Shown here one piece after another: positions 1-18,453 of a stretch of 21,355 nt of DNA. A model generated the notes under the pieces. It worked only from the letters and a program-made list of their open reading frames with translations, ran no database searches and was not told the origin of the DNA. Origin of the DNA: a virus. A program made the translations under genes and the position numbers. Location of the stretch: the IMG/VR virus record IMGVR_UViG_3300045961_000141, positions 1 through 21,355 of that record; one strand, written 5' to 3'. Position 1 is the first letter of the stretch; each line of letters opens with the position of its first letter.

Positions 1-195
1 TACCCCGCACTCCCCCGCAATCGCATCCGTGATAGTGGCGTCCCGCTGTACGTTCACCACACCATCAGAGGACCACATAGCGAACGTGATGGTCCAGTCC
101 GTGATATCCACCACGGCTCCGGAGATGCTGACCACGATGGGAACGAAGCGCTTGTCGCCGGCCGTAAGGGGGGGCTGTTGGAATTTGTCACTCAT
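1..195 (-). CDS. Partial small phage structural protein, function unknown (C-terminus beyond window)
   Basis: An open frame starts at ATG 193-195 and runs off the left edge, giving 65 visible codons beginning MSDKFQQPPLTAGDKRF. The start is supported by AAGGA about 8 nt upstream and by an 8-nt overlap with the end of the preceding gene (stop at 188), as expected in this operon. The visible part alternates hydrophobic and polar residues and contains VPIVVSISG and ITDWTITFAMWSSDG. That pattern is typical of small beta-sandwich N-terminal domains of phage baseplate or tail-tip accessory proteins, which often begin with a GD-x-x-x-x-P-x-x-V stretch. This resemblance is inference from pattern only. 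No catalytic motif is visible, and the rest of the protein is needed for a function. Confidence 0.6.
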   Translation of the reverse strand, partial: MSDKFQQPPLTAGDKRFVPIVVSISGAVVDITDWTITFAMWSSDGVVNVQRDATITDAIAGECGV

Positions 196-1072
196 TGGGG
201 CAGTCCTTCACGCTGGCGATATAGAGAGCGGGAGTGGCGCAGGTGGCCGAGTAGGTGCCTGCTCCGACCGTGGCAACATAGAGGGCGGGAGTGGTGCAGT
301 CGGCCGAGTATACCACGCCGGAAACGGCTGCGGCGTACAGTTCAGGAGCGGAGCAGACTGCGAGCGGGGGGCAATGCGGCGAAGCCTCTGTGACCACCAC
401 GCCGGCGACGGAGATTGCCCACTCTCCCCAAAGCAGATCGGCGGAGCCGTCAACGGAGACGGAGCCAAGGGAATCAGCGGACAGCGCATCCCAAGCGAGG
501 GACGCGGCGCCGTCGACGGTGACAGATCCCGACGCGGCCAAGGGCAGCGGGGACCATGCCAAGTCGGATGCACCGGAGGCGGAGGCAGCACCAAGTGCGG
601 AAGGCGCGAAGGTGCTCCACGTCAGGTCAGACGAGCCGCCGACAACTACCGCACCGGCGGACGATGGAGTGAAGGCGCCCCAAGTGAGGGATGTCGAGCC
701 GGCAACTCGAACTTCTCCGGTCCCAGCCGCAGCAAAGGCCCCCCATGCTAGGTCTGCTGTTCCCGTTGCGGCCGGGTCCTCCACGGTCCCAGACGCGGAG
801 ACCGCGAAGGCGCCCCACGAAAGACTAGCAGGGCCTTCCACGTTGACCGCTCCGGCGCTTGCGACAAGCAGCGCGCCCCATGTGAGGGAGGTGGCACCTG
901 AGACGGCCACAGACCCCGCAGCAGCCGGAGCGATGGCGCCCCATGCTAGAGACGCCGTGCCAGTGATGGCGGTGGCCGAATCGAGCGCAAAATCAACCGC
1001 GCTACGGGGCGCGGGAGTGAGGCTGGACAGCGCAAAATCTACACTGGTCCTGGATGGCGGCGAGTAGGCCAT
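188..1072 (-). CDS. Tandem-repeat protein with two repeat families, probable virion surface or fibre-like protein
   Basis: A 294-residue protein starts at ATG 1070-1072, one base after the upstream stop. Residues 1-38 hold two copies of a motif ending in VDFAL(S/D)S. Residues 39 to about 228 hold nine imperfect copies of a 21-23-residue repeat with the pattern (S/D)L-x-WG-A-x-x-x-x-x-x-G-x-V-x-V-x-G. The tryptophan is kept in every copy. Residues 240-294 hold three copies of a different repeat, about 19 residues long, containing (P)-(A/E)-LY-x-A-x-V and spaced by single cysteines. The protein is small-residue rich (Ala, Gly, Ser, Thr, Val) and has no signal peptide or membrane segment. Regular beta-strand repeats after the baseplate genes suggest an extended virion protein, perhaps replacing a fibre. 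I do not recognise the family. Function is inferred only from composition and position. Confidence 0.75.
   Translation of the reverse strand: MAYSPPSRTSVDFALSSLTPAPRSAVDFALDSATAITGTASLAWGAIAPAAAGSVAVSGATSLTWGALLVASAGAVNVEGPASLSWGAFAVSASGTVEDPAATGTADLAWGAFAAAGTGEVRVAGSTSLTWGAFTPSSAGAVVVGGSSDLTWSTFAPSALGAASASGASDLAWSPLPLAASGSVTVDGAASLAWDALSADSLGSVSVDGSADLLWGEWAISVAGVVVTEASPHCPPLAVCSAPELYAAAVSGVVYSADCTTPALYVATVGAGTYSATCATPALYIASVKDCPNE
191..352 (-). repeat. Three tandem ~19-aa Cys-spaced LY repeats
   Basis: Residues 241-294 of the same protein contain ELYAAAVSGVVYSADC, then ALYVATVGAGTYSATC, then ALYIASVKDC. Each copy has Pro, two residues before Leu-Tyr, and ends with a cysteine 19 residues after the previous one. 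The last copy is truncated by the end of the protein. Four evenly spaced cysteines (residues 240, 259, 278 and one near 291) are seen directly. Disulfide or metal use is not shown. Confidence 0.75.
353..958 (-). repeat. Nine tandem ~21-23-aa repeats with invariant Trp
   Basis: This block encodes residues 39-240 of the repeat protein. Copies begin at approximately residues 39, 61, 82, 105, 127, 148, 169, 190 and 211. The core in most copies is S-L-(A/T)-W-G-A-F, with S-D-L-(A/T)-W-S in copies 6 and 7. On the + strand the repeated core shows as GCGCCCCA followed by a variable stretch, at several places between 670 and 950. The DNA copies have diverged more than the protein pattern, which suggests old duplication kept under protein-level constraint. 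Confidence 0.8.
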
Positions 1073-9843: not shown

Positions 9844-11068
9844 CGGACACAACCTCCAGCACTGAGCCGGGGGCGATTACTCCGGGATATGGCAGCGCGT
9901 TCCGAGAGCAGATTTCAAGCTCCCGCGCGGTGTCTCCGTAGAGCCGATGGCAGAGCACAAGGCTCTGCTCTGTCTTGCTCACGGTGAGGGAGATCACGTC
10001 CCTGGTTTGCTCGTCCGGGTCGGGGAGCACATCGAGGATGCCTGCGCGCAGGTCTTGAAACAGTTGCCAGATATCGTCCGGCATCCCCCCATCCATCTCC
10101 GCGTCAATGCGCCGGAGAAGTTCGTCCCGCACAGTGCGCGCATCAGAGAAAATGGGCCACTCGGCTTCCGCCGCAAGCTCCGCTACGCGGACAATGGTCG
10201 CCCGTCGCTGCGCCGCAAACAGGACTTCGTGTAGCGTTGCCTGCTGAATCCGGCTCTGTGATAGCGGCGCAGTCTGAGGAAGCGTCGCCCATGGCGCGTC
10301 GTTCAGCCCGAGCATTTCGAGGAGCGCACGCGGGACCGTGGGTGGAGCGAACGCCACCGCAAGGATACCACTGATCGCATCGAAGAGCCCCGCCGCGTCG
10401 CGGACATACTCCGCGGAACGGTTGATCGCATTGTTGAGTCGGTAGCGGAAGTCGGCGAGCGCTTGCGCCTCGCGGAGCATTGACGACCCGGGCCGGTCCA
10501 TTCCTCGCGCGAATCCTGAAAGCAGGTCCGCCATGGGCGAGAGAAACGAACCGATGACCGTGGTGGGGTCATACTGCGCCACGAACCCAGCTTGCAGCGC
10601 AATCAGGAGCGCGTCAGTGGTGATGTTCAGGGACGCAACTGCATCCACGCTGAACGACGGAAACGGAGCGCTCTCCAGCGTCTCCGTAAAAGTCATAGAG
10701 AAGCGAGCAATCCCGCCTTCGTCGCGGCTCTCCGAGACCGAGAACTCCGAGCAGACCACGGTTCGCTTGCCGTGGAACGGGTGAACAAGCTCCCCCGGCC
10801 CGTCGCTGCTTTCGAGCGCGTCAATCAGCGCGTCACGCGCGGCGAGGTACCCGCTCCCGACCACATAGCCAACGACGGAGAACCCGCGCGCCTTGCGTCC
10901 GAGGTCCTCCGCAAAGGGCTGGTCCTGCGCGGGGTACTCGTGAATCTCCACGCGACGCCCGCCGCTACGGTCGGATGACTCCACGAAGAACGGCGCGCCG
11001 CGGAAGCTCCCGCCGATATACTCGCGAGCACCGATCTTGACCGTCTGAAGTTGCTCCCTCCAAGTCAT
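9836..11068 (-). CDS. Mu gpN-like protein with DNA circularisation N-terminal domain
   Basis: A 410-residue protein starts at ATG 11066-11068 in an ATGA overlap with the tape measure stop. Residues 1-130 match the DNA_circ_N domain (PF07157): TWREQLQTVKIGAREYIGGSFRGAPFF, HEYPAQDQPFAEDLGRKARGFSVVGYVVG and HPFHGKRTVVCSEFSVSESRDEGG followed by ARFSMTFTE. In Mu the protein carrying this domain is gpN, a tail protein likely injected with or located near the tape measure; despite the family name, its function is structural in this context. The C-terminal two thirds is helical and less distinctive. Mu gpN is somewhat longer, so this is a slightly short version. Confidence 0.9.
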   Translation of the reverse strand: MTWREQLQTVKIGAREYIGGSFRGAPFFVESSDRSGGRRVEIHEYPAQDQPFAEDLGRKARGFSVVGYVVGSGYLAARDALIDALESSDGPGELVHPFHGKRTVVCSEFSVSESRDEGGIARFSMTFTETLESAPFPSFSVDAVASLNITTDALLIALQAGFVAQYDPTTVIGSFLSPMADLLSGFARGMDRPGSSMLREAQALADFRYRLNNAINRSAEYVRDAAGLFDAISGILAVAFAPPTVPRALLEMLGLNDAPWATLPQTAPLSQSRIQQATLHEVLFAAQRRATIVRVAELAAEAEWPIFSDARTVRDELLRRIDAEMDGGMPDDIWQLFQDLRAGILDVLPDPDEQTRDVISLTVSKTEQSLVLCHRLYGDTARELEICSRNALPYPGVIAPGSVLEVVSGV

Positions 11069-12828
11069 AGGCTAGACCCCGCGCGGCCCACGTTGGTTTG
11101 TACCTGAACCGGGCCAGTGGTCTGCGATGTGACGTTGACGCCCGGGGGCATTCCAGAGAAGTCGACCGTGATCCAGGTCTGCGATGCAATCTGCGCCGCC
11201 ATTGCTTGGATTGACCCCGGCTGCGTGGCTGCCGGCAGAACGGTGGCAGCCGCCCCGGTGTTGCCTCCGGTAACCGGTGCGCCGCCCGGGAACAGGTGCG
11301 CGTCCCTCGCCTGTAGTGCCTTCAGCTCAGCAAGCGCATCATTAGTCGCGCCCAGCTGCGCCTTCTTCTCAGCGACCTGAGCCTCCGTCTCCTGTAGGTT
11401 CTTCCAACTGCTCCACGCTGCAACGGCGGCACCGATGGCTGCTGCCAGAGCGAGAAACGGCCAAGTCGCCGCGATGACTCCCGCAGCCACACCGAACCAT
11501 GCCGACGCAATGCCCCAAATCGACGCCACGAACCCGGCGCCCGTGGCCGCCTGATAGATTGCAATCGCGGCCGTAACACTCTGCCACGCTTTCGCCAGCC
11601 CGCCGATCACGGTGATGGCTCCGCCCACTGCCGTCATCGCTGGGCCAGCAATGGCGAAAGCAGCCGCAAGCATTAGAGCGCTGTTCTGGCCGTCCTCGCC
11701 AAGGGACTCGAACCACCCGGCTGCGTCTTCCGCGATCTTTGCCATGCGCTCCACGACCGGAAGTAGCTTTGTCCCGATGCTAATCGCGCTTGCCTCGATT
11801 GCATTCTTTGACCGCTGCATCGCCGCGGCTCCGGTTGCGCTCTGCTTCTGAAAGGCCGGCCCCAAGTTATCAACCCCGGAGCGCATGTCCGCAAGTGCAG
11901 CCTGACTCATGCCGGCCTGAGTCCCGGTGAGGGCCAGCATGGCAGTAAGAGCGTCCGTGGAGCCGACTAGCTCGAGCATCTTTGCCGTGTCACCGCCCAG
12001 TTCACCCTTGATCTTCGTGAGAGCAGCTTGGAGTCCTCCGCTTTTGGCAACCAGATCTGGGAAGTCCTTGGCACCGAGCGCACCGAAGACCTTCCGGCTC
12101 TTCGTGGTCTCGCGAGTGAGCCCCGAAACAACCGCCTTGAGCTGTGTGTATACCGTGGCGGCAGGGGTGCCGACAGCAGTCATGGCCGCAACGTTGCTCA
12201 GGTAGTCGTCCAGCTTGATGCCGGCGGCAGAAATGGCCGGAGCTACCGCACCGAATCCCTGCGCGAGCCCTTCGATTGTGGTCTTTCCGCTCTTGACCGT
12301 GGTGAAGATGGCATTCGCCGCGCTCCCTGCATCGGACGCGGAGATGCCAAAAGCATTCAGCGAGGAAGTAAGCAGATCGTTTGCCTGCTTAGTGGTGCCA
12401 ATGCCGGCCACGCCGAGCTTTGCGGAAGCCTCTAAAACCTTGAACTGGTCAGCTGCTGACACACCGGCGGAGCGCACGTCATACAGCGAAGCAGTCAAGT
12501 CTGAGATTCCAACCGGCACGCGGCGCGACATCTCCAGAATTGACGCCCCCATCGCATCAACACTCTCCGTGTTGGTGTCAATGAGCGTTGCGACGTTGGC
12601 CATTCCGGCCTGAAAATCCATCGCGATCTTCGTCGCTGCGACGCCAAGGCCAGCGATTGGCAGTGTCAGCCCCGCAGTCATGGCCGCGCCGGCATTGGCC
12701 ATCCCGGCGCCCACCTTTTCGATGCCGGAAACGCTCGCGCGCATCTTCCGCGTGGCAGAAGCAAGCGCACCGGTGGCGTTGTCGGTGAGCCCTAGAACGA
12801 ACTGAAGTGGGAACCTATCAACCGCCAC
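11065..12828 (-). CDS. Tail tape measure protein
   Basis: A 587-residue protein starts at GTG 12826-12828, inside the end of the chaperone frameshift frame (11-nt overlap). It has the TP901-type tape measure pattern: MDFQAGMANVATLIDTN around residues 70-86, SLYDVRSAGVS, ASAKLGVAGIGTTKQANDLL and AFGISASDAGSAANAIF around 150-185, then SGKTTIEGLAQGFG and AMTAVGTPAATVYTQLKAVVSGL. Residues about 382-472 are a long hydrophobic region (AAAFAIAGPAMTAVGGAI onward) of possible membrane segments, as usual for DNA-delivery tape measures. A coiled-coil-like stretch follows (ETEAQVAEKKAQLGATNDAL). At roughly 1.5 Å per residue, the length predicts a tail near 90 nm; this is an inference, not a measurement. 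Confidence 0.93.
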   Translation of the reverse strand: MAVDRFPLQFVLGLTDNATGALASATRKMRASVSGIEKVGAGMANAGAAMTAGLTLPIAGLGVAATKIAMDFQAGMANVATLIDTNTESVDAMGASILEMSRRVPVGISDLTASLYDVRSAGVSAADQFKVLEASAKLGVAGIGTTKQANDLLTSSLNAFGISASDAGSAANAIFTTVKSGKTTIEGLAQGFGAVAPAISAAGIKLDDYLSNVAAMTAVGTPAATVYTQLKAVVSGLTRETTKSRKVFGALGAKDFPDLVAKSGGLQAALTKIKGELGGDTAKMLELVGSTDALTAMLALTGTQAGMSQAALADMRSGVDNLGPAFQKQSATGAAAMQRSKNAIEASAISIGTKLLPVVERMAKIAEDAAGWFESLGEDGQNSALMLAAAFAIAGPAMTAVGGAITVIGGLAKAWQSVTAAIAIYQAATGAGFVASIWGIASAWFGVAAGVIAATWPFLALAAAIGAAVAAWSSWKNLQETEAQVAEKKAQLGATNDALAELKALQARDAHLFPGGAPVTGGNTGAAATVLPAATQPGSIQAMAAQIASQTWITVDFSGMPPGVNVTSQTTGPVQVQTNVGRAGSSL

Positions 12829-13218
12829 GCTTGCCCGCCTCCCGTTCCATCTGTCGGAGCCTATTCACCCGCCCGATCCACTGCCGCAGATCGTCCGCAT
12901 CGAGCTCTCCCAGCTCCGCTATCGAGAAGCGGAACTCGTGAGCCAGCACGATCACGGCGTCGTCGTAGTCGTCGGGCCACTCGATAAAAAACCGGATACC
13001 AGAGCGATGATCGCGGCCATGTCCTCGTGATCGATCTCCCCGAAAATGAGGTCAGAGAGACCGCACAGCCGCGCCGCGATGGTGCAGAGATCATCGAAGT
13101 GCATCGGGTCGCGGACTGGAATACCCTTCCAGTCCTTGACCTTCACGCGCTCGCGGAAATTGAGCTCCTCAACACGGACTCCCCCCACCTCCACCGGATT
13201 GATGAGCCGGTATTTCAC
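12818..13218 (-). CDS. Tail assembly chaperone, -1 frameshift long form (gp41-like plus extension)
   Basis: The long form is 133 residues. It reads the zero frame from GTG 13216-13218 to Leu-78, then moves to the -1 frame at base 12985 and ends at TGA 12818-12820. The added 55 residues are IEWPDDYDDAVIVLAHEFRF, then SIAELGELDADDLRQWIGRV and NRLRQMEREAGKRGG. This contains an acidic helix, a tryptophan-rich short domain and a basic end, the layout of gpE'/gpT-type chaperone extensions. No start codon precedes the -1 frame, so it can only be expressed by shifting. The tape measure start lies 11 nt inside the end of this frame. Long-tailed phages use a fixed ratio of short and long forms to fold the tape measure. 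Confidence 0.85.
12952..13218 (-). CDS. Tail assembly chaperone, zero-frame short form (Mu gp41-like)
   Basis: An 88-residue protein starts at GTG 13216-13218 in a GTGA overlap with the tube gene. It begins MKYRLINPVEVGGVRVEELN, followed by FRERVKVKDWKGIPVRDPMHFDDLCTIAA around residues 21-49, typical of the Mu gp41/Phage_TAC family (PF10109). In the zero frame it ends SSGPTTTTTP after the slippery site, a low-complexity tail encoded by repeated ACG/GAC triplets. That tail is unlikely to be functionally important, and it is replaced in the shifted product. It sits between tube and tape measure genes, the fixed position of chaperones. Confidence 0.88.
   Translation of the reverse strand: MKYRLINPVEVGGVRVEELNFRERVKVKDWKGIPVRDPMHFDDLCTIAARLCGLSDLIFGEIDHEDMAAIIALVSGFLSSGPTTTTTP
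12985..12991 (-). promoter_or_regulatory. Programmed -1 ribosomal frameshift slippery heptamer T-TTT-TTA
   Basis: In the direction of transcription the sequence reads GGT TTT TTA TCG in the zero frame, giving T-TTT-TTA, a standard X-XXY-YYZ slippery site. Both P- and A-site tRNAs (Phe, Leu) can re-pair in the -1 frame. The -1 frame remains open for 55 codons after the site and ends in TGA just past the tape measure start. A downstream stimulatory hairpin is possible in the GC-rich stretch but I could not confirm one by eye. Confidence 0.85.
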
Positions 13219-13592
13219 GGAGCGATCTCCTTACCGTCCGCTGCCTCGAAGCGGACCTCGATATTCCCCTCTTCACTGTTGCCGGTGCCCTCGCCAACGA
13301 AGTGGGCGCCGTTCAGCACGATTGCCTTTGCGGGGCCATTGGGCCCGACTGCAAGCTGAAGGACAACGGTTGCCTCCTCGATGCCAACGAGGGCCTCGAG
13401 GGAGAGGCTCGCGGAATCCGTGATCTCGCCGGCAATGAACGCGGCCTGCGGCTTTTCCATGAAGCCGTGAACGCCGTCACTCCCAACGATGGTCTCGCGC
13501 ACAGGGCGACCGAGATTGTACTCCCAATTGCCCTTTGCATCGAAGCGAACGCCGTCAACGGTGACCTGAATGATACCTGCTCTGCGCTTCAT
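13215..13592 (-). CDS. Mu gpM-like tail tube protein
   Basis: A 125-residue protein starts at ATG 13590-13592. AGGAG lies within 13603-13607, directly by the sheath stop, and its spacing is 10 nt. The sequence AGIIQVTVDGVRFDAKGNWEYNLG, followed by RETIVGSDGVHGFMEKPQAAFIAGEITD at residues 31-58, is the diagnostic core of the Mu-type tail tube family (PF10618). Stacked hexamers of this protein form the rigid inner tube inside the sheath. Length is normal for the family (about 115-125 residues). Confidence 0.94.
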   Translation of the reverse strand: MKRRAGIIQVTVDGVRFDAKGNWEYNLGRPVRETIVGSDGVHGFMEKPQAAFIAGEITDSASLSLEALVGIEEATVVLQLAVGPNGPAKAIVLNGAHFVGEGTGNSEEGNIEVRFEAADGKEIAP

Positions 13593-13606: not shown

Positions 13607-15088
13607 TCAGAGGATGAACTGGATCTTTGCCGCCGTGACAATCAACTGATTGATGAGGTCAGGCGGAAGCAGGAAGTCGAGACGGTTCACGTCCGTTGCG
13701 TTGCGCTCGACCACCAAGTCACGCTTGAACTGCTCAAGAGCAGAGGCGTCCACAAGCCCGAGCTCCGCCATGTCGAGGAACCACGAAACCGCCTCGGCCT
13801 TCCCGAGAAGAGGGGTCATGACAGCCTGACCCGCACCGTACTTCGCGCCATCGTTTGCGAGCTTATGGCGCGGATACTTGCTCAGGATTCGCTGCCTGAA
13901 GCTGTAACGCAGATACATCAGCGTCAGCATAGTGTTGGCGTCGAGGTAGGCCGCATCGGTCCCGCCGGCAGCGTTGGTCTGGTAGGTAGTGATCAGTCGT
14001 TCGATCCGAGTCACCCCACCAGCGTCCTGCGTGGTAGTAGCGATCCCGTCGAAGAGCAGGTTGTTCCGCTCCTGAAGCGTGAACTTCACATCATTACTGG
14101 TGAGCGGGACAATGCCGGCCACGGGAAGGGTCTGGAACGGGCGCGCCGGGTCGATCTGCCCATACAGCGCGACCACCGCAGCAACGCCGGCCGCAAGCTC
14201 CCACGATGGAGAGAATGTCGAAGGTGAGGCGTTCGCCACGATGCAGGAGTGTGGGCTATTTCGGCCGTTCCCTAGCGTGGTCAGGTTCCCGAGGCTATCC
14301 ACCGCACCAGTGATCGCGAGACCATCGATCATGCGCATTGGACCAAAGCGAGAGGCAAGCTCTGCCTCAATGGCAGCAAGCGAGGTCGCGTCCGTGAACG
14401 GGTGCGCGATGACCTGGAACCACTCGTCCGCGAGCGCCGCGATCAGGGTGGTGAGGGTGGGCGCAGCGGTCCCGCCGGACATTCCCACAATGGCCTGAGT
14501 AATCCCGGCAGGATTGCTCTGCCCATCGTAGGGGGCAATCGCAATATCGTAGCCATTGCCGACGAGACCCTTCGTGGCGAAGGTCACGGTTACAACCGAG
14601 GTCGACGCCGAAGCAGTGACAGGGATGTCCGAGACGGCAGAGATTGCCGCGGCCACCGCAGTTGCAACGGCCGTCGAAGCGGTCCCGCTCGCCACCGCAA
14701 CGGGGACGTAGACGCCGCCCAGATACAGGTGGATCGTGCCTGCGGCAGTCGAAGTGCCGGAGAAGGTGATGGTGCCGGTAGCAGCCACACCGGCGCCGGG
14801 CTCCGCAACCACTCCGAGGTAGAGAGGGGTGGTCGTGTTGTTCGCAAACCACTCCTTGGCCATGCGGTAGGCTACGGAGCGCGCGCCAGCCTTCGTGCGC
14901 ACATCGTCTGCACTGGTGACCTTGCTCCAAGTGTCGGCAGTCTGCGTGCCGGCCGAGGTCTTCGGTGCGATAATCAGTCCGTTGTAATGAAGGAGAGCAG
15001 GCCCCTGCGATGCGCGGGAAGCGTCAAATTCCGCAGTGACGAACGGCACGCGGAGAGCGGACGGAATGCTGTTGAAAGAAATGGTCAC
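13607..15088 (-). CDS. Mu gpL-like tail sheath protein
   Basis: A 493-residue protein starts at GTG 15086-15088 in a GTGA overlap with the DUF2635 gene. It begins ISFNSIPSALRVPFVTAEFDASRASQGPALL, the typical sheath N-terminus of Mu gpL. Later elements are YLGVVAEPGAGVAATGTI, NSPHSCIVANASPSTFSP and a C-terminal domain with FTLQERNNLLFDGIATT, RLITTYQTNAAGGTDAAYLD and MLTLMYLRYSFRQRILSKYPRHKLA. These last are the conserved sheath C-terminal strands that connect to neighbouring subunits. The protein forms the contractile outer sheath that drives the tube through the envelope. It proves a myovirus morphology. Confidence 0.95.
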   Translation of the reverse strand: MTISFNSIPSALRVPFVTAEFDASRASQGPALLHYNGLIIAPKTSAGTQTADTWSKVTSADDVRTKAGARSVAYRMAKEWFANNTTTPLYLGVVAEPGAGVAATGTITFSGTSTAAGTIHLYLGGVYVPVAVASGTASTAVATAVAAAISAVSDIPVTASASTSVVTVTFATKGLVGNGYDIAIAPYDGQSNPAGITQAIVGMSGGTAAPTLTTLIAALADEWFQVIAHPFTDATSLAAIEAELASRFGPMRMIDGLAITGAVDSLGNLTTLGNGRNSPHSCIVANASPSTFSPSWELAAGVAAVVALYGQIDPARPFQTLPVAGIVPLTSNDVKFTLQERNNLLFDGIATTTQDAGGVTRIERLITTYQTNAAGGTDAAYLDANTMLTLMYLRYSFRQRILSKYPRHKLANDGAKYGAGQAVMTPLLGKAEAVSWFLDMAELGLVDASALEQFKRDLVVERNATDVNRLDFLLPPDLINQLIVTAAKIQFIL

Positions 15089-16551: not shown

Positions 16552-18453
16552 TTAGACGCCGGTGCTCTTGTAGAAGCCGCGATGGTCAATAACCTTCGCG
16601 GCGAAGTCGTGACGGCACTTGATCTCGAAGCCGTCAATCTCGAAGCCCTCGCGGGTCTCGATGTAGGGGCCGTTTTCGCCTTCCAGCGTGGCGATCTCGA
16701 TGGTGTCGATCCCGGAGGGATTCGCCACCAGATACCAAGCCGTTGCACTGCCCACGTCAAGGCGCGGCTCCGCGATGACCATGAGCCGCGAGGCAAACGG
16801 ATTCACGGAGCTAGACTGCGATGCGAGCAGAGCCGACGAAACGAACTGGTCCGCGGTGGTCTCCAGAGCGGCAGGAACCAGAATGTACGCCGGAGCAACG
16901 TTCAGGTAGCTACCATTCAGGCCAGTCTGCTTGCGCATGGCTGCGCGACCCGCGCCGATGTTGGCCACATTGATCACACCGGAACCGAGATTCCCGTGCG
17001 AAGCGTGGAACAGCACCACGCCGTCTCCCATGGTCGGGTTGCTCAGGTAGTGAGACCAAACAATATTGGACTCCGTGTCCCGCGCACTGCGCCCGAAGGC
17101 CGCCGGCATACGGGAGAAGGCATCCATATCGTCATTGATAAGAGTCTGCCGGGTGATGGCCAGTCGCTTCGCGTAGGTGGCGAGACTGTATACCTCGCGA
17201 CCCTCGCCGATGGTCCCGAGCTTGATCTCCGCACCTTCCGGAACGGCTTCAAGAACGGGAGCATCGCCAATCTGAGTCACCTTGCGCGACTTGAAATCAG
17301 GGATGGTCACGCGCCGCGAGAGCGGCTCGAAGGTCTGCGGTGCCTCGCTGTAGGCGCTCCGCAGGGCCTTCCCGGCGACATCCGCAAGGAGCAGCGGGAA
17401 GTCGGAGGTAGAGTGCATCCCGGAGCGGACCAGTAGTGCGCCGGCCTGCTGCATGCGCGACCCGGCGAGAGGCTTACCCTCCACCGCGCGGATATACTCG
17501 CTGCCCATCTCGAGGAGGGAGCGCCCAAGGTAGGGCTTGGCCTGCTCGGTGGCGTCACTGCGGAGCCCTGCGCGGTACTCCAGAGCATCGCGGAGACCCT
17601 CCTTTGCGCTGTCGCGGGCATCGCGCACCACCTCCACGGAGACCCCGCGGGGCTTGCTACGCTCGCTGTCGCGGGCAATGACGGCATCAAGGATCTGCTT
17701 GCGCGCGTCCTCGATGGTGGCGCCGGACTCCACGAGGGAGCGGGCCATGCTGTCGAGCTGCACGCTGCGGGCGATGCTCTCGATCTCAGTGATGCGCTGC
17801 CTTTCGGCTGCGCGGATACCCTCGACGTCCACGACAGGAGCCACCGGGGCGGCTCGCGTCTCGACGGCCGGGGCGGCCTCGGTGTTCTGCTGGTCACTCA
17901 TGGTTTCTTTTTCCTCATGCGCTCCAAGGGAGCGGAACTTTGCGCCCACATCCGCAGGGATAGGGGCGACGCTGATTTCATGGGGCTCCCACTTGGTCAC
18001 CCGGTAGACGGGAATGCCGTCCACAGATTCCTTTTGTCGCTGCATCTTGTGGATCCGATACCCCACAGAAACGCCGCTGATAATGCCGTTGCGGACCTTG
18101 CCAAAGATCACGCCTGCTGTCGGGTCGTTGTCCCCGTCGTCGAAGCGGACCACAGCGAAACCCTGCGAGCCGTCCACGCGGACAGAACCGGGGACAACGG
18201 TCCCAACGATCTTGGTGGCGTCCTCGCCTCCGCGGTGGCCGTTCAGAAGCGGAGCGCCGGCATTCAGGCGGGACAGGTCCACCGCGCCGGGCGACAGGTC
18301 CAACTCCTCGAAGAAAGGCCCATCGACGCTCATGCGAAGAACGCGCGCAGAAGCGGTAGCGAATACCACGCCCACGGTGCGGTCCTCCACGTTGACGCTT
18401 TCAGGCATCGCCCGCGCTTCAATGGTCAGAAAATCCACGCCGATCATTGTCAC
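16552..18453 (-). CDS. Prohead protease / major capsid protein fusion
   Basis: A 633-residue protein starts at GTG 18451-18453 in a GTGA overlap with the portal gene; ATG two codons later is an alternative. Residues 1-180 form a S78-like prohead protease: LLNGHRGG with likely catalytic His-73, NGIISGVSVGYRIH with likely catalytic Ser-129, and WEPHEISVAPIPAD near 155-168. Residues about 185-290 are a charged, helical scaffold-like linker (ERQRITEIESIARSVQ). Residues about 330-633 are the capsid, with FEPLSRRVTIPDF, KRLAITRQTLINDDMDAFSRMP, VLFHASHGNLG and APAYILVPAALE. This architecture is known from protease-capsid fusions of lambda- and Mu-like phages. Maturation would cut the fused protein. 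An internal ATG at residue 185 has an upstream AGGA (see findings). Confidence 0.92.
   Translation of the reverse strand: MTMIGVDFLTIEARAMPESVNVEDRTVGVVFATASARVLRMSVDGPFFEELDLSPGAVDLSRLNAGAPLLNGHRGGEDATKIVGTVVPGSVRVDGSQGFAVVRFDDGDNDPTAGVIFGKVRNGIISGVSVGYRIHKMQRQKESVDGIPVYRVTKWEPHEISVAPIPADVGAKFRSLGAHEEKETMSDQQNTEAAPAVETRAAPVAPVVDVEGIRAAERQRITEIESIARSVQLDSMARSLVESGATIEDARKQILDAVIARDSERSKPRGVSVEVVRDARDSAKEGLRDALEYRAGLRSDATEQAKPYLGRSLLEMGSEYIRAVEGKPLAGSRMQQAGALLVRSGMHSTSDFPLLLADVAGKALRSAYSEAPQTFEPLSRRVTIPDFKSRKVTQIGDAPVLEAVPEGAEIKLGTIGEGREVYSLATYAKRLAITRQTLINDDMDAFSRMPAAFGRSARDTESNIVWSHYLSNPTMGDGVVLFHASHGNLGSGVINVANIGAGRAAMRKQTGLNGSYLNVAPAYILVPAALETTADQFVSSALLASQSSSVNPFASRLMVIAEPRLDVGSATAWYLVANPSGIDTIEIATLEGENGPYIETREGFEIDGFEIKCRHDFAAKVIDHRGFYKSTGV

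Follow-up and report, generated by a model that had tools for sequence, protein, structure and literature searches.

A phage with a Mu-type tail carries a probable P2 E/E+E'-type programmed -1 frameshift in its tail assembly chaperone gene

A small gene between the tail tube and tape measure genes

We analyzed a 21,355-nucleotide stretch of viral DNA (hereafter, the window) and focused on its tail module, which lies on the minus strand. Pfam and PHROG matches back the gene order sheath, tube, tail assembly chaperone (TAC), extension, and tape measure protein (TMP), with the following features:

13607 to 15088, minus strand: tail sheath protein (phrog_165, E = 1.9e-155; Phage_sheath_1 also matched)
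13215 to 13592, minus strand: tail tube protein (PF10618, Tail_tube, E = 5.6e-28)
12952 to 13218, minus strand: tail assembly chaperone, zero-frame product of 88 aa, GTG start at 13218, TGA end (PF10109, Phage_TAC_7, E = 4.6e-7; phrog_166, tail protein, E = 2.9e-6)
12985 to 12991, minus strand: slippery heptamer T-TTT-TTA, in phase (a canonical X-XXY-YYZ site stands here in 24 of 27 loci)
12818 to 12985, minus strand: -1 frame extension, 55 codons plus TGA, with a P2 GpE-type domain (PF06528 in 20 of 26 extensions; Bordetella phage match, E = 3e-4)
12952 to 12955, minus strand: GTGA overlap of the zero-frame stop and a -1 frame GTG, possible reinitiation (45 aa), not conserved
11065 to 12828, minus strand: tape measure protein, 587 aa, GTG start at 12828 (PF10145, PhageMin_Tail, E = 2.4e-28; phrog_1533, E = 1.5e-52)

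The small ORF between the tail tube and tape measure genes thus occupies the position of a gene of the P2 E/E+E' type. Its zero-frame product scored 30.2 bits against PF10109 in the Pfam search, compared to a curated cut-off of 25, and Pfam describes this family (Phage_TAC_7) as "E, or 41 or 14." A search of NCBIfam returned zero matches. Elsewhere in the window, a 633-aa ORF (16552-18453, minus strand) joins prohead protease (Peptidase_S78) and major capsid (Phage_capsid_4/Mu-like gpT) domains. A 294-aa protein (188-1072, minus strand) is built of degenerate repeats of ~27 residues (A-S/D-L-x-W-G-A-F ...); it has no match in a Pfam search, and a tandem repeat at the DNA level was looked for there and not found.

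The original observation, T-TTT-TTA with an open -1 frame, holds, and its coordinates and lengths are correct. The heptamer, read from 12991 to 12985, falls in the codons GGT TTT TTA, i.e., in the phase needed for tandem slippage. From there the -1 frame runs without a stop through 55 codons (12985 to 12821) up to a TGA at 12820-12818, overlapping the tape measure gene (GTG at 12828) by 11 nt, and a fused product would have 133 residues (78 + 55). How much of this exceeds chance differs between the two elements. An open -1 frame is by itself weak evidence in this window, as at least 55 open -1 codons follow 20% of positions within its genes. What exceeds chance is the slip site: runs of six Ts or six As occur twice in 21 kb, and one of the two is the slip site; among the window's 23 genes, it is the single in-phase heptamer made solely of T/A letters; and the Leu codon TTA is used only 4 times among ~540 Leu codons. 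Conservation among relatives adds to this, and since openness of the -1 frame is unremarkable alone, the case rests on that conservation. In the window, a search over 60- to 100-nt stretches downstream found no stimulatory RNA structure (z from +0.7 to -1.4), and a search for a conserved downstream structure among the relatives gave zero consensus pairs.

Conservation and identity of the extension

A scan of viral contigs with the fused protein gave no match, and we therefore reached relatives through the sheath gene; a scan of genome contigs for relatives found none. The sheath search yielded 42 loci, which, after removal of duplicates and addition of Bordetella phage PBb001, became 27 non-redundant loci including the window. 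All 27 have the extension in the chaperone's -1 frame, with no stop across the junction, and join it at the same motif; in one locus (L006), it is interrupted by the contig end. The site takes the form T-TTT-TTN in 18 loci (TTTTTTG in 12, TTTTTTC in 4, and TTTTTTA in 2), and six further loci have another canonical heptamer (GGGTTTT in 4, GGGTTTC in 1, and CCCTTTG in 1). One of the TTTTTTG loci (L034) reads CCCTTTT in phase as well. The remaining three retain the extension although a canonical heptamer is missing (L003, CGGTTTT; L023, GGATTTT; and L039, GGCTTTT). The two outcomes that the original prediction had named as fatal, i.e., a slip site without conservation in relatives or stops in their -1 frame, are not what the relatives display.

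Codon use at the site points the same way. Where the site encodes Phe, the codon is TTT in 25 of 26 loci, whereas codon use in the sheath genes of the individual loci would predict 4.1 (SD 1.5), and GC-rich genomes retain this rare codon for Phe at the slip site. Past the zero-frame stop, mismatches by -1 frame codon position are 0.45, 0.40, and 0.62; the third position varies most, which is the pattern of a translated frame. Both measures are descriptive and treat relatives as if they were independent.

The identity of the extension emerged through its relatives. Alone, the window's copy fell below the GpE model, and no Pfam model matched it. It matched the extensions of three Bordetella phages (41.7% identity, E = 3e-4) and also phrog_8286. 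Across the aligned extension sequences, PF06528 (Phage_P2_GpE) matched 20 of 26, and a profile of the extensions aligned with the P2 E' extension; the GpE assignment comes through these aligned extensions and reaches the window's own copy only via its relatives. The gpE'/gpT-like look first noted for the extension is thereby borne out, also by the P2 precedent.

Could the GpE-like segment instead be a separate protein? The claim that the extension has no start of its own needs qualification: two GTGs are present in its frame (12955-12953, within GTGA, and 12949-12947), and what stands is that such starts are not conserved. Termination-reinitiation at the GTG overlapping the zero-frame stop would give a separate 45-aa GpE-like protein. 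The GTGA is in place (12955-12952), and four relatives have start-type codons nearby (GTG in L015 and ATG in L035, both at the same -4 offset, and others in L026 and L027). However, a scan from 30 nt before the junction to 75 nt after it finds no ATG, GTG, or TTG in the extension frame of 22 of 27 loci; the GTG is not preceded by a Shine-Dalgarno-like sequence; and conservation extends to the residues that the slip site and this GTG enclose (FFxxWPxDWxxA), as well as to the slippery site itself. We consider reinitiation very unlikely in place of frameshifting. There is a slim chance that the locus yields three products, with a free-standing GpE-like protein of 45 aa, begun at GTGA, next to the 88-aa chaperone and the 133-aa frameshift product.

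The T6 run invites two further explanations. A sequencing or assembly error there could have split a normal fused gene, homopolymers being error prone and the window being a virus record, apparently an IMG/VR contig. Yet the identical split occurs at the identical place in 26 other loci and in P2, all independent records, so that its probability is negligible and we regard this explanation as ruled out by the relatives. Alternatively, RNA polymerase might slip on the run, which is homopolymeric, so that some transcripts would carry the other frame. A run of six Ts is short for such slippage, and relatives have GGGTTTT or CCCTTTG instead of the run, which fits tandem tRNA slippage and not polymerase slippage; we judge this origin extremely improbable.

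Comparison with P2, Bordetella phages, and Mu-type tails

The locus resembles P2 E/E+E' in its GGT TTT TT(A/G) site, its -1 shift, and a GpE-type extension reaching 8-11 nt into the tape measure gene. P2 has GGT TTT TTG at the corresponding point, where its record places a -1 frameshift that yields E+E', and the extension stops 8 nt into T. According to a published study (PMC3091744), the -1 shift of P2 at TTTTTTG gives a 91-aa E and a 142-aa E+E', near the 88 and 133 aa of the window; the same study reports a downstream hairpin to be absent in P2 and three relatives, which agrees with the lack of downstream structure in the window. The two systems differ in the slip codon (TTA in the window, TTG in P2) and in their neighbors, which are Mu-type in the window and P2-type in P2, and sequence identity is low. 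The closest named relative is Bordetella phage PBb001 (also vB_BbrM_PBb002 and PY223), with a sheath 51% identical, a T-TTT-TTG site, and a homologous extension; its deposited annotation holds solely the 89-aa zero-frame product.

Mu gp41 shares the location of the frameshift, between the tube and tape measure genes, but not its type. Two papers (PMC2628397; PMC5009743) report that Mu shifts by -2, and in the records that we inspected, CGG-GGG-CGA together with an open -2 frame was found only in Mu, D108, Pmp9, MuM16-2, and B23. This combination is common to loci L045, L049, L050, L057, and L059 and marks a separate Mu/D108/Pmp9/MuM16-2/B23 subgroup. The window's chaperone gene lacks the Mu gp41-type CGG-GGG-CGA, having T-TTT-TTA and an extension in the -1 frame instead. 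A T-TTT-TTN site with an open -1 frame was found in the records of SfV, ST64B, AH07, YeP1, BgVeeders33, EPP-1, PG1, and PBb001. SfV, AH07, and EPP-1 (GGT TTT TTC), as well as ST64B, combine a Mu-type sheath with such a site, as the window does; the extensions of SfV and ST64B have diverged, with the extension profile giving SfV a weak score (8 bits) and ST64B none. A canonical -1 site in a Mu-type tail had been singled out as a contrast to Mu. Mu and its close kin do use -2, but phages such as SfV and ST64B make a -1 site in a Mu-type tail ordinary. The chaperone gene of phage KS10 (L060, 2101-2655) has no run of five Ts or five As and no G-rich slip run, in agreement with a published statement. 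Mu-type tails divide between T-TTT-TTN, with a -1 shift, and CGG-GGG-CGA, with a -2 shift, and offer a tidy natural comparison.

A P2-type chaperone in a Mu-type tail

Gene order, the match to Phage_TAC_7, an extension of GpE type, canonical sites at 24 of the 27 loci, and the example of P2 together argue that the tail assembly chaperone gene very probably undergoes, as originally predicted, a programmed -1 ribosomal frameshift, here assigned to the P2 E/E+E' type. Judged by its sequence, the locus is a putative P2 E/E+E'-type chaperone within a phage bearing a Mu-type tail. Most ribosomes would produce the 88-aa chaperone. In a minority, the P- and A-site tRNAs on TTT TTA would slip one base back, and translation would run on through the 55-aa GpE-type domain to a product of 133 aa; both the slippage and its efficiency are predicted. 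In lambda, the tape measure protein is bound by the short form, gpG, and the longer gpGT recruits tube subunits (PMC5009743). By analogy, the short form here would act as a chaperone that coats or binds the tape measure protein, and recruitment of tail tube subunits would fall to the extended form.

The mechanism is already established and well known in tailed phages. As anticipated, gene callers miss this frame, and most of the deposited Mu-type phage records that we checked are without a frameshifted product; the finding mends an annotation that gene callers overlooked.
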